A stretch of 64,000 nt of DNA from Mucilaginibacter sp. (lineage in GTDB: Bacteria > Bacteroidota > Bacteroidia > Sphingobacteriales > Sphingobacteriaceae), in contig NZ_JAQBOF010000035.1 of assembly GCF_028288185.1 (NCBI RefSeq), forward strand, positions 124,001 through 188,000, written 5' to 3'. How positions within the stretch are numbered: position 1 is the first letter of the stretch; every line of letters starts with the position of its first letter. Below are positions 51,887 through 62,238 of this stretch, one piece after another. A program made the translations under genes and the position numbers. The notes below the pieces were generated by a model that was given only the letters and a program-made list of their open reading frames with translations, searched no databases and was not told where the DNA came from.

Positions 51887-53023
51887 GTGCGCCAAATGTA
51901 TACAGAACCAAAGATCGTTTCAACGAGTGAATTACAAACAAGATCCTATATAACATTCTATCTCGACAACAAACGAGTTAGAGAGTACAACGGGAAAAGC
52001 ATTAATTTAACAATCAATCCCAATCGTGCTTCTACTTTAGAGGAGCGTGGTAAGCTTTTAAGACAACTTCAATTTGAGTTACTCAAATCATTACAAGCTA
52101 ACAACTATCCTGCGAAGAAAGAAATCGATATCGCTCCTGCTGATGAGCCTGGGACTAAATTCCTTTTAAAAGCCGCGCTTGATAAGAAGATGAATGCAAG
52201 TCTAAGCAAGACTTACAAACGAAACCTCAGATTGATCTATGAACAGTTTATAAGATTTCTAACTGAGCAAGAGCAGAACTCCCCAATTACTACATTAACT
52301 ACAACTCGAATCGAAGCGTTTCTATCTAATTATAACTCCTCCGGAACCTATTACATGGACAGACGAAGAGACTTAGGAGTCCTATTTGCATCGGTTGGTC
52401 GCATGCTTGATAAAACGCTGAACGTGGTTAAAAGAACTGAACCTGCAAGGGTTAAAGCTAGACTACATAAAGCGTATGACAAAGAACAAATCAAGCCCAT
52501 TCTTGAATATCTTAGAGCAAAGAATTACAATTTATACTTATGCTGTCTATTCACTTATGGTGCTTGGTTAAGACCTCATGAAGAAGTCAGATTATTAACA
52601 AAAGAACACTTTATGAACAACTATACGGAAGTGCATTTATCGGGATCAGAAAATAAAGGAGGCAAGGTCCGAGTTGTATATCTCCCTGAATACATAAGAA
52701 CAGAGATTATCCCTGTCCTAGACCGCATAGAGCGGTCAGATAATATCTTCACAGGTAGTCCGAAACCATTTAACGACGCCTACTTCAATACGCAATGGAA
52801 ACGTCATTGGGTTAAGATGTTTGAGAAAGGCCTAGTATTCAACAACCAAACGATTTACTCATTCAGACATACAGCAGCAGTCCAAGTCTTTAAGCGAACC
52901 AAAGATGTATATCTCCTACAGAAGCTCTTAGGTCATTCGTCAATTATGGTTACCCTTAAGTATCTGCGCAGTTTAGGAGAATTCAATAGTGAAGAACTTA
53001 AAGAAGCAGCGCCTACCCTTTAA
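51887..53023 (+). CDS. Tyrosine-type site-specific recombinase/integrase
   Basis: 378 aa; TYGAWLRPHEEVRLLTKEH (R), TIYSFRHTAAVQVFKRTKDVYLLQKLLGHSSIMVTLKYLRSL (HxxR...H...Y). Start is GTG at 51887 or ATG at 51896. Confidence 0.93.
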   Translation: MRQMYTEPKIVSTSELQTRSYITFYLDNKRVREYNGKSINLTINPNRASTLEERGKLLRQLQFELLKSLQANNYPAKKEIDIAPADEPGTKFLLKAALDKKMNASLSKTYKRNLRLIYEQFIRFLTEQEQNSPITTLTTTRIEAFLSNYNSSGTYYMDRRRDLGVLFASVGRMLDKTLNVVKRTEPARVKARLHKAYDKEQIKPILEYLRAKNYNLYLCCLFTYGAWLRPHEEVRLLTKEHFMNNYTEVHLSGSENKGGKVRVVYLPEYIRTEIIPVLDRIERSDNIFTGSPKPFNDAYFNTQWKRHWVKMFEKGLVFNNQTIYSFRHTAAVQVFKRTKDVYLLQKLLGHSSIMVTLKYLRSLGEFNSEELKEAAPTL

Positions 53024-53030
53024 AAACAAA

Positions 53031-53056
53031 AGGCCCACCTTAGCAGGGTGGGCCTA
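53031..53056. terminator. Bidirectional terminator between convergent genes
   Basis: AGGCCCACCttagcaGGGTGGGCCT. Confidence 0.85.
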
Positions 53057-53059
53057 ATA

Positions 53060-53524
53060 TTACGATGCATCGTCACTAACTTCGGGTCTAACCCTTGCAA
53101 TCGGGCTATAGCCAGTCAGTGTTCTAAATTCGTTACCATTGGTATCAGTGTTCGTTACATATAGTTCCTCAAACACAAAGAGTTGGAAGAAATCAGCCTC
53201 ACTACGAATCTTAAGTTTCGTTTTGTAAGCATCCAATTCGAGAGTACGCCTAACGATACCTACGATACGAATTACATCACCAGGTGTAACAGGTTTGTTT
53301 AACTCGAATGCCTCATACAGAGCAGTAAAGTAATCTTGTTCATCGTGCTTAGCCTTTATCACGGCTTCGCTTTTGTCTACAAAGACCGCATAAGAGCTCT
53401 TACCACGGTTAGTTAATCCTTTTACTATATCTATTGCTTGTCGATCACCGTAGGTGTCTATAAGTGAATAGTATCTCTGTTGTTGGGTTGTTGTTAAATC
53501 ATTAACATTAAAGTTTGTTGTCAT
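53060..53524 (-). CDS. Hypothetical protein
   Basis: 154 aa; MTTNFNVNDLTTTQQQRYYSLIDTYGDRQAIDIVKG...; well-formed ORF, no family recognised. Confidence 0.65.
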   Translation of the reverse strand: MTTNFNVNDLTTTQQQRYYSLIDTYGDRQAIDIVKGLTNRGKSSYAVFVDKSEAVIKAKHDEQDYFTALYEAFELNKPVTPGDVIRIVGIVRRTLELDAYKTKLKIRSEADFFQLFVFEELYVTNTDTNGNEFRTLTGYSPIARVRPEVSDDAS

Positions 53525-54075
53525 TTGAATAAGTTTTTAAATATAAAAGTTACGTCTAATGATCTCTTTGCTTAATGTTTATCTAGCTACTATGGGATTA
53601 TTACAGCCCAGGCAATAGCCTGCCTTTGCATCCCCTACGTGCACGTAGGGAACTACAATATATAATCTGTACAAAGCATGGCCATGCCGGTACAGCTACT
53701 ATTGGTCAATTTTAAATTTAAGCAATAAGCTTAAAGTGTATACAGCATGTCAAAGAACATAAAAAATTCAGTTACCCAGAGGGTATGTACGTTGGTTGAT
53801 TGACGGCCTATTTGGTTAATTTGGTAGTCGGCCTAGCGGGAATTCGGTAAGTAAGCATGTGGTTGCTCCCGCTGGTGACAAAGATAGTATTGATTTTATT
53901 ATTTTCAAATAAAATGTAAAATAAACTGAAATTCCTGTTTTCAGGGGCTTCACCTGACCGCAAGTGCAGCAAATGGAATATTGACTTAATATGTTGATAT
54001 TTAGATGTTTATTTGATAAAGTCGGGATATTTTCTTATATTTACATAACATTTCAGAGTACGGTACAGGCTTAAT

Positions 54076-54106
54076 AAAAAGCTCTGTTTAGCTAACAGAG
54101 CTTTTT
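54076..54106. terminator. Orphan intrinsic terminator
   Basis: aaaaAGCTCTGTttagctAACAGAGCTttttct with no annotated gene ending upstream on the + strand. Confidence 0.75.
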
Positions 54107-54219
54107 CTTTACCTAAGATTTCCTCTCCCGCGCCAATTGTTACAGATAATCATTTAAAGCCAGATACACCATGTTACACTCCACAGATCAACAACGTAAA
54201 TACTGTATTATGCAAAGAA

Positions 54220-56031
54220 ATGATAAAACCAATAATTATTACCCTGAACAACACCGATTACTTAGATAAAGCATTTAGGACCTTACCTTCAAACGCGTTT
54301 ATACATAAAGGAAGATGTGGCATAGGTGGTACCACACTAGAGATTTTAGCCAAACGTTGCTCTATTATAATTGTACCGACAAAGGGGATTATAACCAGTA
54401 AGTGCAATAAGCACTCAGAGTTATTCGGCGTAGATGGAGACGTTAGTGTTGAAGCTATTGAGGCTTATCTGCAGTCTCCCACCAAATATAAAAAGATCAT
54501 GTCAACGCCTGATAGCTTTGGTAAAATTATAACCGCAGCTATTAATACCGGTAAATCAACACAACTCTATCAGGATTATTTCTTGCTTATGGACGAGTGT
54601 CATACTGCAATTACTGAAGCATTCAGAAAGAATATACTGAATCCATTCAAGTACCTATGGAATTTCAAACGCAAGACTTTTATCTCAGCTACACCATTTA
54701 AATTTAGCGACAAGCGATTTGAACAGTTTCAGCCTATTTATATCAGGTTCCATCAGACATACTTGGGTAAAGTGATCGTAAGACCTACCGGTAACGTTGA
54801 TGCCTGTGTTGATTATTATATCAGCAACAGGGATGCGTTTACAGGCAAGCTATTTATTTTCTATAACTCAGTTACAGAAATGACGGAATGTATTAAACGT
54901 AACAGGTTGACAGCCGACCAGGCCCATATCTATTGTGCAGCTAATGAAGACAACTTTGATAAGTTACCGGATAACCTATTGGTATTTCAACGTGAGCCAA
55001 CAGATAATAAGTACGCAGACTTCAATTTCTTTACTTGCAAATACTTTGAGGGCATAGATATTAACGAGGAGAACGCAACAGTGCTGCTGGTTACCGACAT
55101 ACATAAGGCACACACCAAAGTTGGTATTACCAATAAAGGTGTACAGGCTATTGGCCGCTTAAGGAAGCCGACACAACAGATCATACATATAACTAATAAC
55201 AGACACATACAAGGCATGAAAACTATTGATCAATTCAGGAAAGAGTATGAGATACACATTCAACCTATAGAAAGCTACAACAGCTATGTTGCTCGCTGCA
55301 ATACATTTGGAGTAAAGCCTTTAGAAAGTTATGCTAAGCCTATTGAGTGCTTTGCAGATATTGATGAAGAGACAGGAATCGCAACTTTCAATACCACCAG
55401 ATTAGACCAGGTGCTAAACGGATTGGTGTGTAATGAGCAATTTAACAACCTTGATACCATAAACGAGGCATGGGAACAGGCGTTGTATGAAGTAGAGATG
55501 AAACCCTATGGCGCAGCAGCATCGAAGCAACGTAAGTCTAAAGCTGATAAACTCAAAGAGGATATTCAGTTGATAGAAGAACTGTTACAGCATCAGGGTG
55601 ATTATGTAATGGGTCATGTTGCAAAGGAGCTTGCACGCATACAGAAAAGTAATCCTCTTGCCTATGAAGCCTATAATGGACTAAGCAAGACAAAGCTAGC
55701 TGAACTAAAATACAAACAGAAAGCAGTGAGAACGGCACTCATTGAAAAGCATAATGCAGATGCAGAAGTATTGTTACTGGCTCACCTAGATCACAACTTA
55801 GATGTTGGCCAACGTTGCTCAATAGAGGGATTGGTAAACATACTACAGTTCGCTTATACACTATTGAAGATACGCAACCCCAAGACTGGAGTGGTAAAGA
55901 AAGCAAATGCTACCGATCTGAACGAGCCAGGAAGGTATAAACTGCATGGATGCAAAGTAGAACAAGGCGGTAAGCTAGTAAACGGTTACATCATTGAGCA
56001 TTGTTACTTTAACCTGTTAAAAGCAGCGTGA
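54220..56031 (+). CDS. SF2 helicase-like protein with variant Walker A
   Basis: 603 aa; HKGRCGIGGTTLEI (P-loop position, no GKT), LLMDECHTA (DECH), FISATPF (motif III), QAIGRLRKPTQ (motif VI). Confidence 0.75.
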   Translation: MIKPIIITLNNTDYLDKAFRTLPSNAFIHKGRCGIGGTTLEILAKRCSIIIVPTKGIITSKCNKHSELFGVDGDVSVEAIEAYLQSPTKYKKIMSTPDSFGKIITAAINTGKSTQLYQDYFLLMDECHTAITEAFRKNILNPFKYLWNFKRKTFISATPFKFSDKRFEQFQPIYIRFHQTYLGKVIVRPTGNVDACVDYYISNRDAFTGKLFIFYNSVTEMTECIKRNRLTADQAHIYCAANEDNFDKLPDNLLVFQREPTDNKYADFNFFTCKYFEGIDINEENATVLLVTDIHKAHTKVGITNKGVQAIGRLRKPTQQIIHITNNRHIQGMKTIDQFRKEYEIHIQPIESYNSYVARCNTFGVKPLESYAKPIECFADIDEETGIATFNTTRLDQVLNGLVCNEQFNNLDTINEAWEQALYEVEMKPYGAAASKQRKSKADKLKEDIQLIEELLQHQGDYVMGHVAKELARIQKSNPLAYEAYNGLSKTKLAELKYKQKAVRTALIEKHNADAEVLLLAHLDHNLDVGQRCSIEGLVNILQFAYTLLKIRNPKTGVVKKANATDLNEPGRYKLHGCKVEQGGKLVNGYIIEHCYFNLLKAA

Positions 56032-56125
56032 GTAGTGATAATTTGATGTTTCCTCTCGGAGTTCAAAACTTACCTTTATAGAGGAATGAAAAATAATTGT
56101 TTCTAAACAGGAACAGAGCCTCAAG

Positions 56126-56150
56126 ACCCGCCTTAAAGCGGGTTTTGTTG
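56126..56150. terminator. Intrinsic terminator downstream of helicase
   Basis: ACCCGCcttaaaGCGGGTtttgttg. Confidence 0.75.
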
Positions 56151-56480
56151 TTTCAAAGCAGCTAGTTGCACATCGATTCGTTCAAACCATCGTTTAGCAT
56201 GTTTTACTTGTAAAAACAGTGTTTTGGTATTACGAAACGAAACATGGTATTATAAATACAAAACACTTCGATGCTACATCCTTCAGAAGGGTACCCTTTT
56301 TAAAGCAAAGGTTTGGATAATTGACATCTGCAAGTTTATCTTTTCTTTGTGTACACGAGCTTTTTTGCTTATCTTTATGTTAATAAAGCAATGATAACCG
56401 TTTCGTCGCTTCTATAGATCTCCATTTGCTCAAGCAGCATCCACAAAAGATATTTTAAGTTTATTATAACACAAAATAAT

Positions 56481-56801
56481 ATGACCATGGATTATTTCGC
56501 CCAGGAATTTGATAACGAGACGTTATCGCAATCAGATACACAATATACAACAACAATCGCTGGACATGAGAAAGCTAACTGTTCGATAAGTAAATCAGGA
56601 GACTTAAGTTGCCCTCAATGCTTTTTAAATGATTTATTTAAAGCAACAGCCAAAGTGATTTATGAAAACACGACACTCGAGCCGATCAGCTCATTCGCAA
56701 TAATGGCAGCCAATTTGAAAATGGAAAAATTAGCAATTGATGAAATCTCTAAGCTGTCCATCCGAAACTTGTACGAAGACTTTAGAAAGTTACACTTATA
56801 A
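56481..56801 (+). CDS. Hypothetical protein
   Basis: 106 aa; followed by terminator aaaaaaGGTGCcttaGTGCACCttttttt. Confidence 0.6.
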   Translation: MTMDYFAQEFDNETLSQSDTQYTTTIAGHEKANCSISKSGDLSCPQCFLNDLFKATAKVIYENTTLEPISSFAIMAANLKMEKLAIDEISKLSIRNLYEDFRKLHL

Positions 56802-56829
56802 AAAAGGTGCCTTAGTGCACCTTTTTTTG
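56801..56829. terminator. Intrinsic terminator
   Basis: aaaaaaGGTGCcttagtGCACCttttttt. Confidence 0.8.
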
Positions 56830-57245
56830 TTTTATACCCATTCCCAACCCTTTACTTTACAAGGGCATCTTTCTGAGCAAACACATAACCGTCAAACTCA
56901 ATTTTCAAAATATATTTTTTTGAGGCGCTCCATATGATCTTACCCCGCCCTTTTTAATAGCACTTTGCTTTAGTATTAACAAATGTTCTCCCCTGAAATA
57001 TATTCTGAGTGTTCAAACCGGAGATCGGCCGCTTAGAATTTCACCCCCTTACCTGATACCGGTATAAAATCAAATTGAGTGTGGGACTTAAGGGCACACA
57101 GCCTATGTTGAAAGCACACTTTTGCAAGCAAAAGCTGAAACCCTGTGAATGCTTTGCATTCATACTATCACTGCTGCCTGGCTTTCAATTCGGCTTATGC
57201 CTTAGTCACAAACTCATTCTATTCACTTACCTAAAACCACATAAC

Positions 57246-57731
57246 ATGCGAGAGATCAAACACGTTGGAGACATCATCCAACAACATTTTCCATTATCAC
57301 AAAGCCGAGGAAACAAGCGTTGGACCGTTGCTCATCAACGCAAGAAGTATGACCAAATGACGACGCACAATGAACCCATTGAAGTGGCTTACCATCGCAT
57401 TGTCAATGTCGTAAAGTCGCTTTACATGCTGCCTGGAGATGTCTATTTTGAACGTGATTACAAAGAAGATAGGTCAGAAGGACTTTATGGTATGCATGCC
57501 TTGCTCACACCTCATTTTTATTGGAGACTTGATTGTGCATTCACCTACAATTATGAAATAACCTATGCCTTTAACAATTGCAGTTATGAGTCAGAGATAA
57601 GAAAGCTGATGCAAGCCTATCCGTTAGACAGAGCAGCCATTGAGAAGCAATTTGCACCTGACTTTAATACTTTCTACAATTCTGTATTGGCTGTGCAAGA
57701 GCCAATACACATCCATTCCTTTACAAGGTAA
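57246..57731 (+). CDS. Hypothetical protein
   Basis: ATG at 57246 (MREIKHVGDIIQQHFPLSQSRGNKRWTVAHQ...), 161 aa; the upstream part of track ORF 57075 looks untranslated. Confidence 0.6.
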   Translation: MREIKHVGDIIQQHFPLSQSRGNKRWTVAHQRKKYDQMTTHNEPIEVAYHRIVNVVKSLYMLPGDVYFERDYKEDRSEGLYGMHALLTPHFYWRLDCAFTYNYEITYAFNNCSYESEIRKLMQAYPLDRAAIEKQFAPDFNTFYNSVLAVQEPIHIHSFTR

Positions 57732-57758
57732 TCATTTGAGATTGCCTTACAACATATC

Positions 57759-57786
57759 AAGCCTTGGTCTAACGACCAGGGCTTTT
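57759..57786. terminator. Intrinsic terminator
   Basis: AAGCCTTGGTCtaacGACCAGGGCTTtt, 11-bp stem with one T-G pair. Confidence 0.8.
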
Positions 57787-57819
57787 ATCGTTTACACTAA
57801 CTCACTAAACAAATAATTT

Positions 57820-58305
57820 ATGAAACAAACACCATCTAAACCAGTGCAATCCCCTTTTAACAAAGAGGTTCAAACGGTATTTTTTAAAATCCTTAAAGAA
57901 GCAAAGGCATTGCTTGCTACATTGGAGCGCGAAGAACTCAGATACTCATTGATAAGAGAAGATCGCTTAAGTGATTCGCTAAGCAGAATTATCCACGAGT
58001 TCTGTAATCCGTTGCTTTATCTACGCCTTGAAAGCGACATTGACGGCAAGCTTAGTATTCGTTATGGATTTGAACCATGTGAGGACTATGCTCATATCAC
58101 AGTTGCATTTACACGCTTTCTTTATAAGGCCACTATGCGGGAAGCTACGTCTCAGAACATTGAGGATAGCATTAAAACAAGTTTCTTTATACATAATCCT
58201 GACGAAATGTACGCATATCTCGAAGAGCAGATGAAGCATCACACCTTTCATTTAATTAAGTACAAGCCAGCAGCTGTAAGAAGAAAACAAATGAAGGCTG
58301 CATAG
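57820..58305 (+). CDS. Hypothetical protein
   Basis: 161 aa ORF, no family recognised. Confidence 0.6.
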   Translation: MKQTPSKPVQSPFNKEVQTVFFKILKEAKALLATLEREELRYSLIREDRLSDSLSRIIHEFCNPLLYLRLESDIDGKLSIRYGFEPCEDYAHITVAFTRFLYKATMREATSQNIEDSIKTSFFIHNPDEMYAYLEEQMKHHTFHLIKYKPAAVRRKQMKAA

Positions 58306-58414
58306 TATCACAACTGTTTATTAACTTTACAATAAAAAAGGAGGAAACCGCCAACATACCATTACAAGAAAATTTTATTATTAAGATATAAGCGTTAAGC
58401 TTTGTTTGTCTTGG

Positions 58415-58590
58415 CTAAGAAACCTTGGAAATTTCAATTACACCAAAGACAGATGAGTTCAACGTCCTACGCGATAAGCGTAAGGGCGAAGACTTGTTTG
58501 TTGGTGTTGGGCTTTTCCAAGGGCCTCTTAGTCACAAATTAAGTTCAGTCCTTGCGCTTATTGTGTTTACCAACCTACCATAGAGGACTG
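58415..58590 (+). ncRNA. Candidate structured RNA / cis-regulatory leader
   Basis: Nested helices CTAAGA(58415)/TCTTAG(58526), CCTTGGAAA(58423)/TTTCCAAGG(58514), ACACCAA(58440)/TTGGTGT(58501), CCTACGC(58466)/GCGTAAGG(58478-58485), then CAGTCC(58546)/GGACTG(58585). Confidence 0.6.
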
Positions 58591-58610
58591 ATATGGTACC
58601 AAATCATATA

Positions 58611-59342
58611 ATGAAATTTAAACCTTTACTTATCTTAAGCATAGCTATGCTTGCCACAGCTTGTAGTCATGGATTTTACTACAGACCAGATCCATTTACA
58701 ACCGGACAAAATAATATCATCATCAATAATGGAGTTGCTTATGCAATCTCGCAGAAGGGTGAAACTTCGGTTATCTTAACAGCCATTAAGCCAGTCGACG
58801 GTGAACTTGAACTGAGAATAGGTTACGTTAACAACAACGCCAACCGAGTTGACGCAATACCGGAACAAATTCAAGTATATACCTTAAACGGTAAGAAGCT
58901 TAAATCCTATGCAGTATATTCCGCTGATCAATACATCAACAAGCTACAGAGAAAGCAAAATTTCGCAATGGCTGTGCAGGCGTTCAGCGATGGTTATAAT
59001 AACACCGCTGCAGGCTATTCTACTTCAAGAACCAATGCAGCAGTAGTTTCATCCAACGGCAGCTATGCGGTAGGAAGTTCATCCACTACAACTTACGATG
59101 CGAGTAAGGTATCAGAAGCAGACTATAGAAGCAGGCAAGAATTAGAACACGTGGCAACAAACTTTGCTCAGCAAAATCAAAACATAAGTCAGCAACTTAT
59201 TCGGAGCAACACTCTTTTAAAAGGACAGAGCATTGAAGGCTATGTAATTGTTAACACAAGTAAATCTTTTAAAGAAAAAATTTACGTTGACGTACCTATT
59301 GGTAACGACAAACATGAATTTATGTTAATACCTAATCTTTAA
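58611..59342 (+). CDS. Putative lipoprotein
   Basis: ATG 58611; MKFKPLLILSIAMLATACSHGF lipobox (LATAC); 243 aa. Confidence 0.75.
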   Translation: MKFKPLLILSIAMLATACSHGFYYRPDPFTTGQNNIIINNGVAYAISQKGETSVILTAIKPVDGELELRIGYVNNNANRVDAIPEQIQVYTLNGKKLKSYAVYSADQYINKLQRKQNFAMAVQAFSDGYNNTAAGYSTSRTNAAVVSSNGSYAVGSSSTTTYDASKVSEADYRSRQELEHVATNFAQQNQNISQQLIRSNTLLKGQSIEGYVIVNTSKSFKEKIYVDVPIGNDKHEFMLIPNL

Positions 59343-59349
59343 ACCCTAC

Positions 59350-59371
59350 AAGGCAGACTTTTGTCTGTCTT
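59350..59371. terminator. Hairpin after lipoprotein gene
   Basis: AAGGCAGAC-tttt-GTCTGTCTT, 9 bp with one G-T pair. Confidence 0.6.
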
Positions 59372-59386
59372 GCTAATCACAATCTT

Positions 59387-59782
59387 ATGTTTAACAAACT
59401 AATTCTCACATGCTTCCTTGTATTTGGCACTTTAACCATATCCAATGCGCAAAGCCTTAAAATCACTGATGTTAACTCATCAAATGATAAAATGTACAAA
59501 CAGGCATCTGAAGGCTTAGGCAAAGCGATTATCATCACTATTTACGACAAAAGCGTTAAATTACAACTGCCGGATGATGCCAAACCAATAGTTCTTAGAG
59601 CTATATCTGCTAATGAATACTATGATGTCACAGAAGAAAGTGAAAAGGAAAAGTGGACAGCTCGTCTAACAGTCAATAAAACACTTGGGGTAGTAACTTC
59701 CGCGCTTTTAACTATAACTGTTGCGGAGAAAGGAGGAAAGTATCAAAGCGCAAGCTGTACGTTTACTGCTAAAAGGTTCTAA
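59387..59782 (+). CDS. Secreted hypothetical protein
   Basis: 131 aa; signal peptide MFNKLILTCFLVFGTLTISNAQS. Confidence 0.65.
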   Translation: MFNKLILTCFLVFGTLTISNAQSLKITDVNSSNDKMYKQASEGLGKAIIITIYDKSVKLQLPDDAKPIVLRAISANEYYDVTEESEKEKWTARLTVNKTLGVVTSALLTITVAEKGGKYQSASCTFTAKRF

Positions 59783-59809
59783 AGAAATAGTACCAATTAC
59801 TTACTAACC

Positions 59810-60076
59810 ATGAAGTATAACCCAATCACTCAAACACTATTTACAGATAGCTTAACAGCTTTAAAAAAACTTCATTGCCCTTTAAACAAACATTGGGACG
59901 AACTAACGAATATAGCACATAGTCAAGACAGACTATGTGCTACTTGTCAGCATCAAGTTTTAGATACAGCCCTTTTAAATGAAAGGGATTTACAACGACT
60001 CCTACAGCTAAACCCCAACACTTGCTTAAAGGTCGACATTAACCAATTTAACATCACGATCACTTATGATACATAA
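59810..60076 (+). CDS. Small Cys-containing hypothetical protein
   Basis: 88 aa; RLCATCQHQVLDTALLNERDLQRLLQLNPNTCLKVD (CxxC plus distal C); overlaps the next gene by 11 nt. Confidence 0.65.
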   Translation: MKYNPITQTLFTDSLTALKKLHCPLNKHWDELTNIAHSQDRLCATCQHQVLDTALLNERDLQRLLQLNPNTCLKVDINQFNITITYDT

Positions 60077-60563
60077 ATTATTCCGCAAGGAGCAAAGCTC
60101 ACATTTGATTGATTTAACTACAGGCTTGCGCACAATATTAACTGCAAGAACAAAGGAAGCCATTAATAAGGCTGCTAGCAAAGGTTATATGCCTTTAGTT
60201 AAACTGGTAGTGCCTAACCCATCCATTAAAAGCAAGTTCGCAGTCTTACAAAACCCGATCACAGGTGAAATAGAATTAATACATGACTTCCGCGCCGAGA
60301 GTAGCAATAAAGGATTGATAACAGTTATTGACTTTACCGACTATAACCCACATCACAACCAATCACCCTATGCAGCCTACCTCGTACCTAAAAACCTAAA
60401 AGCTGGTGAGGATGTATGGTTAGACGACTTGATTGAAAACATAGTAGGTGCACAATGGAATCAAGGAGATTGCTTTCGATTACCATCATGTAAGGCAACT
60501 TGGGATGGTAACGACTTTATCCTACAAGTTCCAAAAGACGGACCTGCGATAATGGTCGGCTGA
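60066..60563 (+). CDS. Hypothetical protein
   Basis: 165 aa; start ATG lies inside the end of the preceding gene (ATGATACATAA). Confidence 0.65.
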   Translation: MIHKLFRKEQSSHLIDLTTGLRTILTARTKEAINKAASKGYMPLVKLVVPNPSIKSKFAVLQNPITGEIELIHDFRAESSNKGLITVIDFTDYNPHHNQSPYAAYLVPKNLKAGEDVWLDDLIENIVGAQWNQGDCFRLPSCKATWDGNDFILQVPKDGPAIMVG

Positions 60564-60571
60564 CACCGACC
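60554..60571. terminator. Hairpin overlapping the 3' end of the 60066 gene
   Basis: GGTCGGctgacaCCGACC, 6-bp GC-rich stem. Confidence 0.5.
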
Positions 60572-60657
60572 TGCTTCGCAACTCTCTTCGTTCGCTGTGC
60601 TATAAGATGTGTGAGAAGTAATAGCAACATTACTTAGTGATTGTATATATTTAACCT

Positions 60658-61560
60658 ATGAAAGTAAAAGATACATATGCATTTTGGCTGATTGGTTTAG
60701 GTGCGAGTTCCTTCATTACCTTATTAATCTTATTCCTTTGGAAAGACTCTACAGTATTCTCAACATCGACAACAATAGACCACAGCAAATTGAGCAGTTT
60801 AGGTTCCATTATGAGTGGGTTAGTAGGGACATTCTGGTCTTTAGCTGGTGTATTACTTTTCTACATAGCATTGACAGAACAACGTAAAGACATGGAGGTG
60901 AATCGTAAAGCGTTGGGCCTGCAAACCGATGCTTTAACTAATCAAATTAAAGAATTTGAACTTCAAACCGCTGAACTTCAAGCTAGCAGAGAAGTGTATA
61001 CTGAGCAATTGGCTACTCAAAGTCTACAGCGATTTGAAAGCACCTTCTTTCAGATGGTCACATTGCATCATAATTTAGTAAATTCAGCAGCTGCAAGGGA
61101 TGAGCGAGGAAATGCAATTGCTGTTGGTCGAGAAAGCTTTATAGCTATCAATGGATGGCTTATTAAAAGGTGGAACCCCCTAAAAAACCTGGCTGAGGAA
61201 GATATAATAAGTACATATCTTTCTCTATATGATTCATATCAGCATGTACTAGGCCACTACTTTAGAAATCTGTATCATATCTTCAAATTCATTGATGAAT
61301 CTAGCATTTCAAATAAAAAGCTATATGCGAACATCATAAGAGCACAATTATCATCTAACGAGCTTTTGTTATTAGTTTATAACTGTCTATCAACCAATGG
61401 TGATGAAAAGTTCAAGCCGTTGGTCGAAAAGTACTCCGTACTTAAGAATCTTGACTGGACACTGATTGAAGGAGGAATGGACGTAATCAGACGTTATAAA
61501 GCAAAAGCTTTTGGACACAAAGATTTTTCATTTTTAGATGGTCATAAAGATTGGCTCTAA
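60658..61560 (+). CDS. putAbiC-type phage abortive infection protein
   Basis: 300 aa; two N-terminal TM helices, then SLQRFESTFFQMVTLHHNLV, YFRNLYHIFKFIDE, YANIIRAQLSSNELLLLVYNCLS, KFKPLVEKYSVLKNL. Confidence 0.78.
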   Translation: MKVKDTYAFWLIGLGASSFITLLILFLWKDSTVFSTSTTIDHSKLSSLGSIMSGLVGTFWSLAGVLLFYIALTEQRKDMEVNRKALGLQTDALTNQIKEFELQTAELQASREVYTEQLATQSLQRFESTFFQMVTLHHNLVNSAAARDERGNAIAVGRESFIAINGWLIKRWNPLKNLAEEDIISTYLSLYDSYQHVLGHYFRNLYHIFKFIDESSISNKKLYANIIRAQLSSNELLLLVYNCLSTNGDEKFKPLVEKYSVLKNLDWTLIEGGMDVIRRYKAKAFGHKDFSFLDGHKDWL

Positions 61561-62238
61561 TGTATGACAGTAGCTTCACTAACCTCACCCGCTTCTGTTG
61601 CTTACATTGGGTAAGGTTAGCTACGCTCCTGTTGGCGCTCCGGGCCTTTCACACACAAGGAAATATGGTATTACGCAACTGCCAATGCTTTCAAAGCTGT
61701 CGCCAGATGTCTTACCTGATAAAGAATGCATACGCATACATTATAAGGTAATGCTTCGCGTGGATTGCGGCACATTTTTATTTCATACCCTATACACATA
61801 TACCACCCATTCATAAAATGTGCTGTTTAAGATCCACACTTCGCAATCTGTCACCCTGCTTTGACTATAGCAAAGTTGTTGCTTCATATTTGCTCTCTCT
61901 TGATTTAAGCAATTTTCATTTATGCTTCGGTTACTTGGTTTGCAACCAGGTAAACCTTGCAACACTCAATCTGCTTGAATCAAGTCGCAAATCATAATTT
62001 TGCTCACCTTACGCCTCGGGTTAGGCATCAGCATTGTCACGGCATTTGCAATTACAATGCTACTCGCATTGTTCAAATGCAGCGCCAATGCCTTGTGATG
62101 CATTCCTTATAGTCGCCTTGCGGCTATCTCTATAAGGACCTAACCCTCTATTCGCGTAGAACGGTTCGCGAAAGAAAGAAGGCTATTGTTATTTGATAGG
62201 CAATTATTTACCTTAGAGGCAAACTTAATCACATCACA

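Follow-up and report, generated by a model that had tools for sequence, protein, structure and literature searches.

By comparison with other genomes, the stretch of DNA which a sequence-only reading had flagged as a switch-like structured RNA of no recognised class is one copy of an uncatalogued RNA family found across the Bacteroidota. In the window (the whole stretch of 64,000 nucleotides of Mucilaginibacter sp. DNA analysed here), it sits between the conserved core and the variable cargo of a small integrative island. The family is new to Rfam 15. We consider it likely that this RNA, like the rest of the new family, is a 5′ leader that works in cis and that its two mutually exclusive folds represent regulatory states. 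In that role, it probably switches genes of exported proteins, and the cargo of mobile islands, on and off.

When 200 genomes of the same taxonomic family were searched at the DNA level, the RNA region had about 25 clear matches, 24 of which were used to build a covariance model. With this model, the RNA was detected in 239 of 401 genomes of the order and in 30 of 297 genomes of the phylum, which are lower bounds due to the strict filters applied; among the phylum matches, L090 is weak and looks like a chance match, and L094 is doubtful. A degenerate DNA pattern matched at least 120 GTDB stretches, and the 80 titles among the matches listed were all from Bacteroidota or plausibly so, including the genera Flavobacterium, Chryseobacterium, Mucilaginibacter, Pedobacter, Maribacter, Sphingobacterium, Dyadobacter, Bacteroides and others. 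Two annotated plasmids carry distant copies of the RNA, each in an unannotated gap. A phage or plasmid origin of the window copy was rejected, as its DNA had no match among phages and plasmids and the degenerate pattern was not found in viral contigs.

None of the 4227 families of Rfam 15 matched the window at the family cut-offs, and a permissive search of positions 58300–58700 returned only matches at chance level. The same was true of 20 homologous loci, which had no Rfam match, and of six loci from other clades, where a permissive search revealed no Flavo-1, 6S-flavo or other credible match. A known RNA family was therefore rejected for the window and the homologous loci, in agreement with the earlier reading. 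We found no description of the RNA family in the literature, but a prior description is not excluded because the coverage was partial. The homology is not carried by the lipoprotein gene downstream, which has a match in only one other of the 200 family genomes; because the lipoprotein is nearly without relatives there while the RNA has about 25, conservation of the RNA does not depend on this gene. A small open reading frame at 58425–58583 was rejected as a gene, since its homologs contain gaps and compensatory changes and do not keep the frame. A match to a known unrelated gene or repeat, which would have refuted the sequence-only reading, is thus not in evidence, given that there is no Rfam match, no second copy in the source genome and no homology linked to a coding gene.

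Table 1. Features of the RNA and its surroundings in the window; z-values are from the swap test.
Feature	Position	Strand	Remarks
161-aa protein	58305 (end), 57820 (start)	+	Island core
Promoter -7 box TAACTTTA	58322–58329	+	Bacteroidota type (TANNTTTR); leader transcript would start near 58335
Conserved RNA	58385–58568	+	Covariance-model match, 156.8 bits; sole match in the window and its genome
Outer helix TATAAGCG	about 58388–58394 / about 58556–58562	+	Island-clade feature; z −7 (whole family)
PK1, TGTCTT(GG) / (CCA)AAGACA	about 58407–58414 / 58441–58449	+	z −19.5
Rod fold	58416–58531	+	P2-P3-P4-P5
P2, CTAAGA / TCTTAG	58416–58421 / 58526–58531	+	z −43
P3, CCTTGGAAA / TTTCCAAGG	58423–58431 / 58514–58522	+	z −24
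P4, ACACCAA / TTGGTGT	58440–58446 / 58501–58507	+	z −35
P5	about 58447–58459 / 58491–58500	+	Weaker, z −7
P6, apical hairpin CCTACGC-gataa-GCGTAaGG	58466–58472 / 58478–58485	+	z −17 (all loci)
ALT helix	58470–58487 / 58548–58565; extension 58491–58495 / 58541–58545	+	z −22
P7, CAGTCC / GGACTG	58546–58551 / 58585–58590	+	Co-varying partners; z −3.8 (islands)
P8, TACCAT / ATGGTA	58576–58581 / 58593–58598	+	z −12
Lipoprotein, function unknown	58611–59342	+	Lipobox LATAC; proposed regulated gene, first cargo gene of the island

The conserved RNA is about 180 nt long, with an added pseudoknot at 58546–58598 (Table 1). The four helices proposed from the sequence alone (P2, P3, P4 and P6) were all found at the coordinates claimed and in the claimed order of nesting. 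The pairing between CAGTCC and GGACTG was likewise present where it had been placed, but it does not form the plain hairpin it had been taken for; it is one stem of an H-type pseudoknot with P8, in which the 3′ strand of P7 lies inside the P8 loop and which ends 12 nt upstream of the ATG at 58611. This pseudoknot had gone unnoticed before, as had the conserved helix PK1, which is a pseudoknot relative to the rod fold but nested within the alternative fold and has a duplex energy of −8.8 kcal/mol in the window. The complementarity between the apical arm and a downstream strand turned out to be more extensive than claimed, comprising 18 consecutive pairs and five extension pairs with an energy of −32 kcal/mol. 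This ALT helix and P6 have one strand in common and are mutually exclusive. The outer helix competes with ALT as well, and most sequences of the island clade fold with the outer helix. Folding of positions 58400–58620 yielded −78.9 kcal/mol, compared to −48.8 ± 4.5 kcal/mol for dinucleotide shuffles (z −6.7), and none of 200 shuffles was as good.

Covariation was analysed in 159 non-redundant sequences aligned without structure. Under a tree-based null, for which substitutions were re-placed along the tree, 14 column pairs were significant at E < 0.05, all of them within the strands of P2, P3 and P4; most of them correspond to the actual base pairs, and the remainder couple columns within one helix. 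No column pair of the other helices passed this null. We also applied a swap test, in which the strands of each RNA are exchanged for those of other RNAs to see how the pairing energy changes, and which ignores relatedness. While the helices gave the z-values listed in Table 1, three unrelated strand pairs used as controls gave +0.6, +2.1 and −0.1 (−0.9 to +2.1 across both runs); a further control pair (75–85:117–130) was not clean because it overlaps P4/P5. The two-hairpin alternative scored −15.6 for the 5′ extension (26–36:90–100), −18 for the ALT core and −16 for the ALT extension. In the named subset alone, the values were −6.3 for ALT and only −1.7 for P6, because the P6 sequence is nearly invariant there. 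A local hairpin around P3 found no support in the named set (z −0.3).

Alignment A2 was based on a model which contained neither PK1 nor ALT and was fitted to the rod. PK1 nevertheless showed 47 double changes on this alignment compared to 10 in shuffles, and ALT was 95.5% paired compared to at most 70% when slid; the rod itself reached a covariation score of 0.53 compared to at most 0.20 when slid, on an alignment fitted to it. The partners of P7 also co-vary between loci (AGTCC/GGACT, GTTCC/GGAAC, AACCC/GGGTT and TCCCG/CGGGA). The homologs which the sequence-only reading had named as a check therefore contain abundant compensatory changes in both competing folds, and its notion of two exclusive, switch-like pairings is supported by comparison, with actual switching being inferred. 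A switching leader would be expected to conserve two mutually exclusive folds, and the swap test and the excess of G-U over A-C pairs indicate that both are conserved here.

The island containing the window copy extends from 51887 to 62000 and consists of a tyrosine recombinase, a helicase-like protein of 603 aa with a weak DEAD match and a GIGGTTLE motif, tandem proteins of about 160 aa and then the cargo. Its gene order is similar in many genomes of the family, with differing cargo, and except for the integrase none of the core families received a confident Pfam, PHROGs or NCBIfam name. The 161-aa protein upstream of the RNA has a fairly confident AlphaFold model (pLDDT 83), but the window copy matches no Pfam family, and neither its sequence nor its fold has a significant relative in the PDB; its role as an obligate partner of the RNA is unsupported, since it is not found upstream of the RNA in other contexts. 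One cargo protein of the island (60658–61560) strongly matches putAbiC (PF16872, E 4e-26), a putative abortive-infection protein, and relatives of it occur in the cargo of L015 and L026.

Upstream proteins cluster, with 48 of 101 belonging to the family of the 161-aa protein, and downstream proteins mostly do not (46 singletons among 98). Judged by a crude signal-peptide rule, the downstream gene product looks exported in 44 of 58 island loci; the corresponding figures are 29% for background ORFs and 7 of 101 for the upstream genes. Elsewhere, a divergent small gene, mostly of the Cro/CI-type HTH, lies beside the RNA in 49 of 78 loci, and the downstream genes code for TonB receptors, ECF sigma factors, thioredoxin-like proteins or response regulators. 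The genes following the RNA thus code mostly for exported proteins, TonB receptors, ECF sigma factors and response regulators, without any single pathway emerging. In four loci, an IS1595-type transposase gene is divergent to the RNA. Seven loci (L079, L146, L148, L169, L171, L178 and L213) have the RNA about 20–200 nt before response-regulator-like genes, in several cases directly after a small HTH-like gene, and may represent a conserved module of a Bacteroidota mobile element. In L124, L137 and L141, the RNA precedes proteins of 75–77 aa that by eye resemble the C-terminal domain of the RNA polymerase alpha subunit.

Because the downstream genes are so diverse, we keep it possible, if unlikely, that the RNA acts on RNA polymerase by processive antitermination and lets it read through unrelated downstream operons. 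The RNA remains constant in front of functionally diverse genes and heads the cargo operons of mobile islands and plasmids, and conserved unpaired bases flank P3 (GAAA, AAnTT, GG and CC), as would be expected of a binding site. However, the terminator-like 3′ end and the P7/P8 pseudoknot by the start codon point to a local decision and not to an effect over long range.

The earlier claim of a leader upstream of the lipoprotein gene is backed by a promoter box and a fixed distance to the start codon. A TANNTTTR box occurs within 110 nt upstream of the RNA in 47 of 59 island loci, compared to 12 expected from shuffling, with its position peaking 60–80 nt ahead of the RNA; outside the islands, it peaks mainly at 20–40 nt. 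In 98 of 101 loci, the RNA and the first ORF after it share a strand. In the islands, 43 of 58 start codons are located 35–60 nt from the RNA, nearly all of these at 38–54 nt; the lipoprotein start was set at 58611 since that start yields a signal peptide. By comparison of loci and without transcript data, the RNA therefore has the place at a transcript's 5′ end, the strand and the distance expected of a cis-regulatory leader. GGAGG is present at 58340–58344, about 45 nt upstream of the RNA, and in 28 of 59 island loci compared to 1 of 99 elsewhere; no start codon follows it closely. Bacteroidota make little use of Shine-Dalgarno sequences and rarely use motifs of the GGAGG type.

The 3′ ends differ between clades. 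A T-run (at least 6 T in 8 nt) follows the ALT strand in 49 of 60 named and 30 of 40 other non-island loci, compared to a background of 6% and to 12 of 59 island loci, and takes the place of the P7/P8 pseudoknot in the other clades. The family at large thus exhibits the hairpin and subsequent T-run of an intrinsic-terminator attenuator, a combination that the window does not show, as its run (GCTTATTGTGTT) is weak. In many non-island loci, the next start lies 100–490 nt past the T-run, and a free-standing small RNA is not excluded for these. That the family as a whole represents such trans-acting RNAs, positioned before genes by chance, is very unlikely despite their own promoter and the terminator-like end in most non-island loci, because the islands have a constant spacing of 38–54 nt and a pseudoknot co-varying against the start codon, and the strand is nearly always that of the next gene.

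For the switching leader, we propose the following mechanism. Fold 1 would be the rod P2-P3-P4-P5 capped by P6, leaving the 3′ strand free. In fold 2, P6 would be open: its 3′ arm would form ALT with the 3′ strand, and its 5′ side would pair with the RNA's 5′ end. In most non-island loci, where the T-run comes right after the ALT strand, fold 2 would act as an intrinsic terminator and fold 1 as the antiterminator. In the island clade, including the window, the free 3′ strand would form P7 with the P8 loop, immediately ahead of the start codon, and the same strand exchange would govern ribosome access and thus translational output. The trigger may be a small molecule or a protein. In the absence of expression or probing data, it is an inference that the folds are alternative regulatory states, that switching occurs and that there is a trigger, as is any assignment of the ON fold or of what is sensed. 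The constrained energies of the two folds are close in the named set (ALT minus rod, +3.1 ± 6.8 kcal/mol), and the data are compatible with either persistence of P2–P4, which would create a pseudoknot, or their melting once ALT forms. We give scarcely any credit to a constitutive 5′ structure which, without switching, would protect the mRNA or insulate the cargo from upstream transcription; a transcript beginning with a very stable rod would suit this reading, which however has no need for a conserved second pairing that destroys the apical hairpin.

Comparison of the loci also identifies the transcript strand. G-U pairs far outnumber A-C pairs (715 versus 179 overall and about 170 versus 10 in ALT), and therefore the plus-strand RNA appears to be the selected molecule. 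The 7-pair core of ALT consists of 83% Watson-Crick, 15.7% G-U and 0.9% A-C pairs, and P6 has 17% G-U versus 2.5% A-C. A DNA-level element such as a recombination or transposition site, a MITE or an attC-like folded strand, which the large imperfect palindrome at the border of conserved core and variable cargo might suggest, is practically ruled out by this ratio of about four to one where equal counts would be needed, by the single copy in the source genome and by the numerous copies that lie next to TonB receptor genes, away from such islands.

Beyond the switching leader itself, we only tentatively suggest that the family is a bistable RNA class, phylum-wide and undescribed (a new riboswitch class or an RNA-encoded antitermination element of Bacteroidota), which reads an envelope-related or physiological signal and has been adopted by mobile islands, plasmids and IS1595-type elements to gate their cargo. 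If this is true, a widespread structured leader of a major phylum is missing from the reference library. It would then offer a testable handle on two questions: how surface transport and exported proteins are controlled in Bacteroidota, where Shine-Dalgarno sequences are little used, and how cargo is held silent or active once a mobile island is in a new host. With transcriptional and translational output modes within one family, the switching logic would be directly testable.

6S-like RNAs are rod-like, too. Structured RNAs known in Bacteroidota include Flavo-1 (RF01705), 6S-flavo (RF01685), Bacteroid-trp (RF01692), Bacteroidales-1 (RF01693) and Bacteroides-1 (RF01694) (PMC2864571). A study on Flavobacterium psychrophilum describes structured 5′ regions without Rfam matches (PMC9723704), which resemble our family in phylum, in being 5′ leaders and in lacking an Rfam match, without identity with it being shown. 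None of the five Rfam families was matched by cmscan, even at E-values up to 5–10. The put RNA of phage HK022 and the EAR element of Bacillales are structured RNAs which head operons of varied content and act on RNA polymerase. LoaP-dependent leaders also place a structured RNA at the operon head and act on RNA polymerase (PMC12691694). Our family shares with all three the position of a structured RNA before operons of varied content, but in contrast to them, what is conserved in ours finishes with a terminator or with a pseudoknot at the start codon. Compared to metabolite riboswitches, it matches none of those in Rfam by sequence or structure, its conserved unpaired bases beside P3 do not point to any ligand, and its diverse downstream genes would be unusual for a riboswitch of a single metabolite, which counts against our preferred explanation of a switching leader. 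It is nevertheless like metabolite riboswitches and attenuators with a shared switching strand in being a 5′ leader with competing helices that have one strand in common, with a T-run terminator in some clades and predicted start-site occlusion in others.
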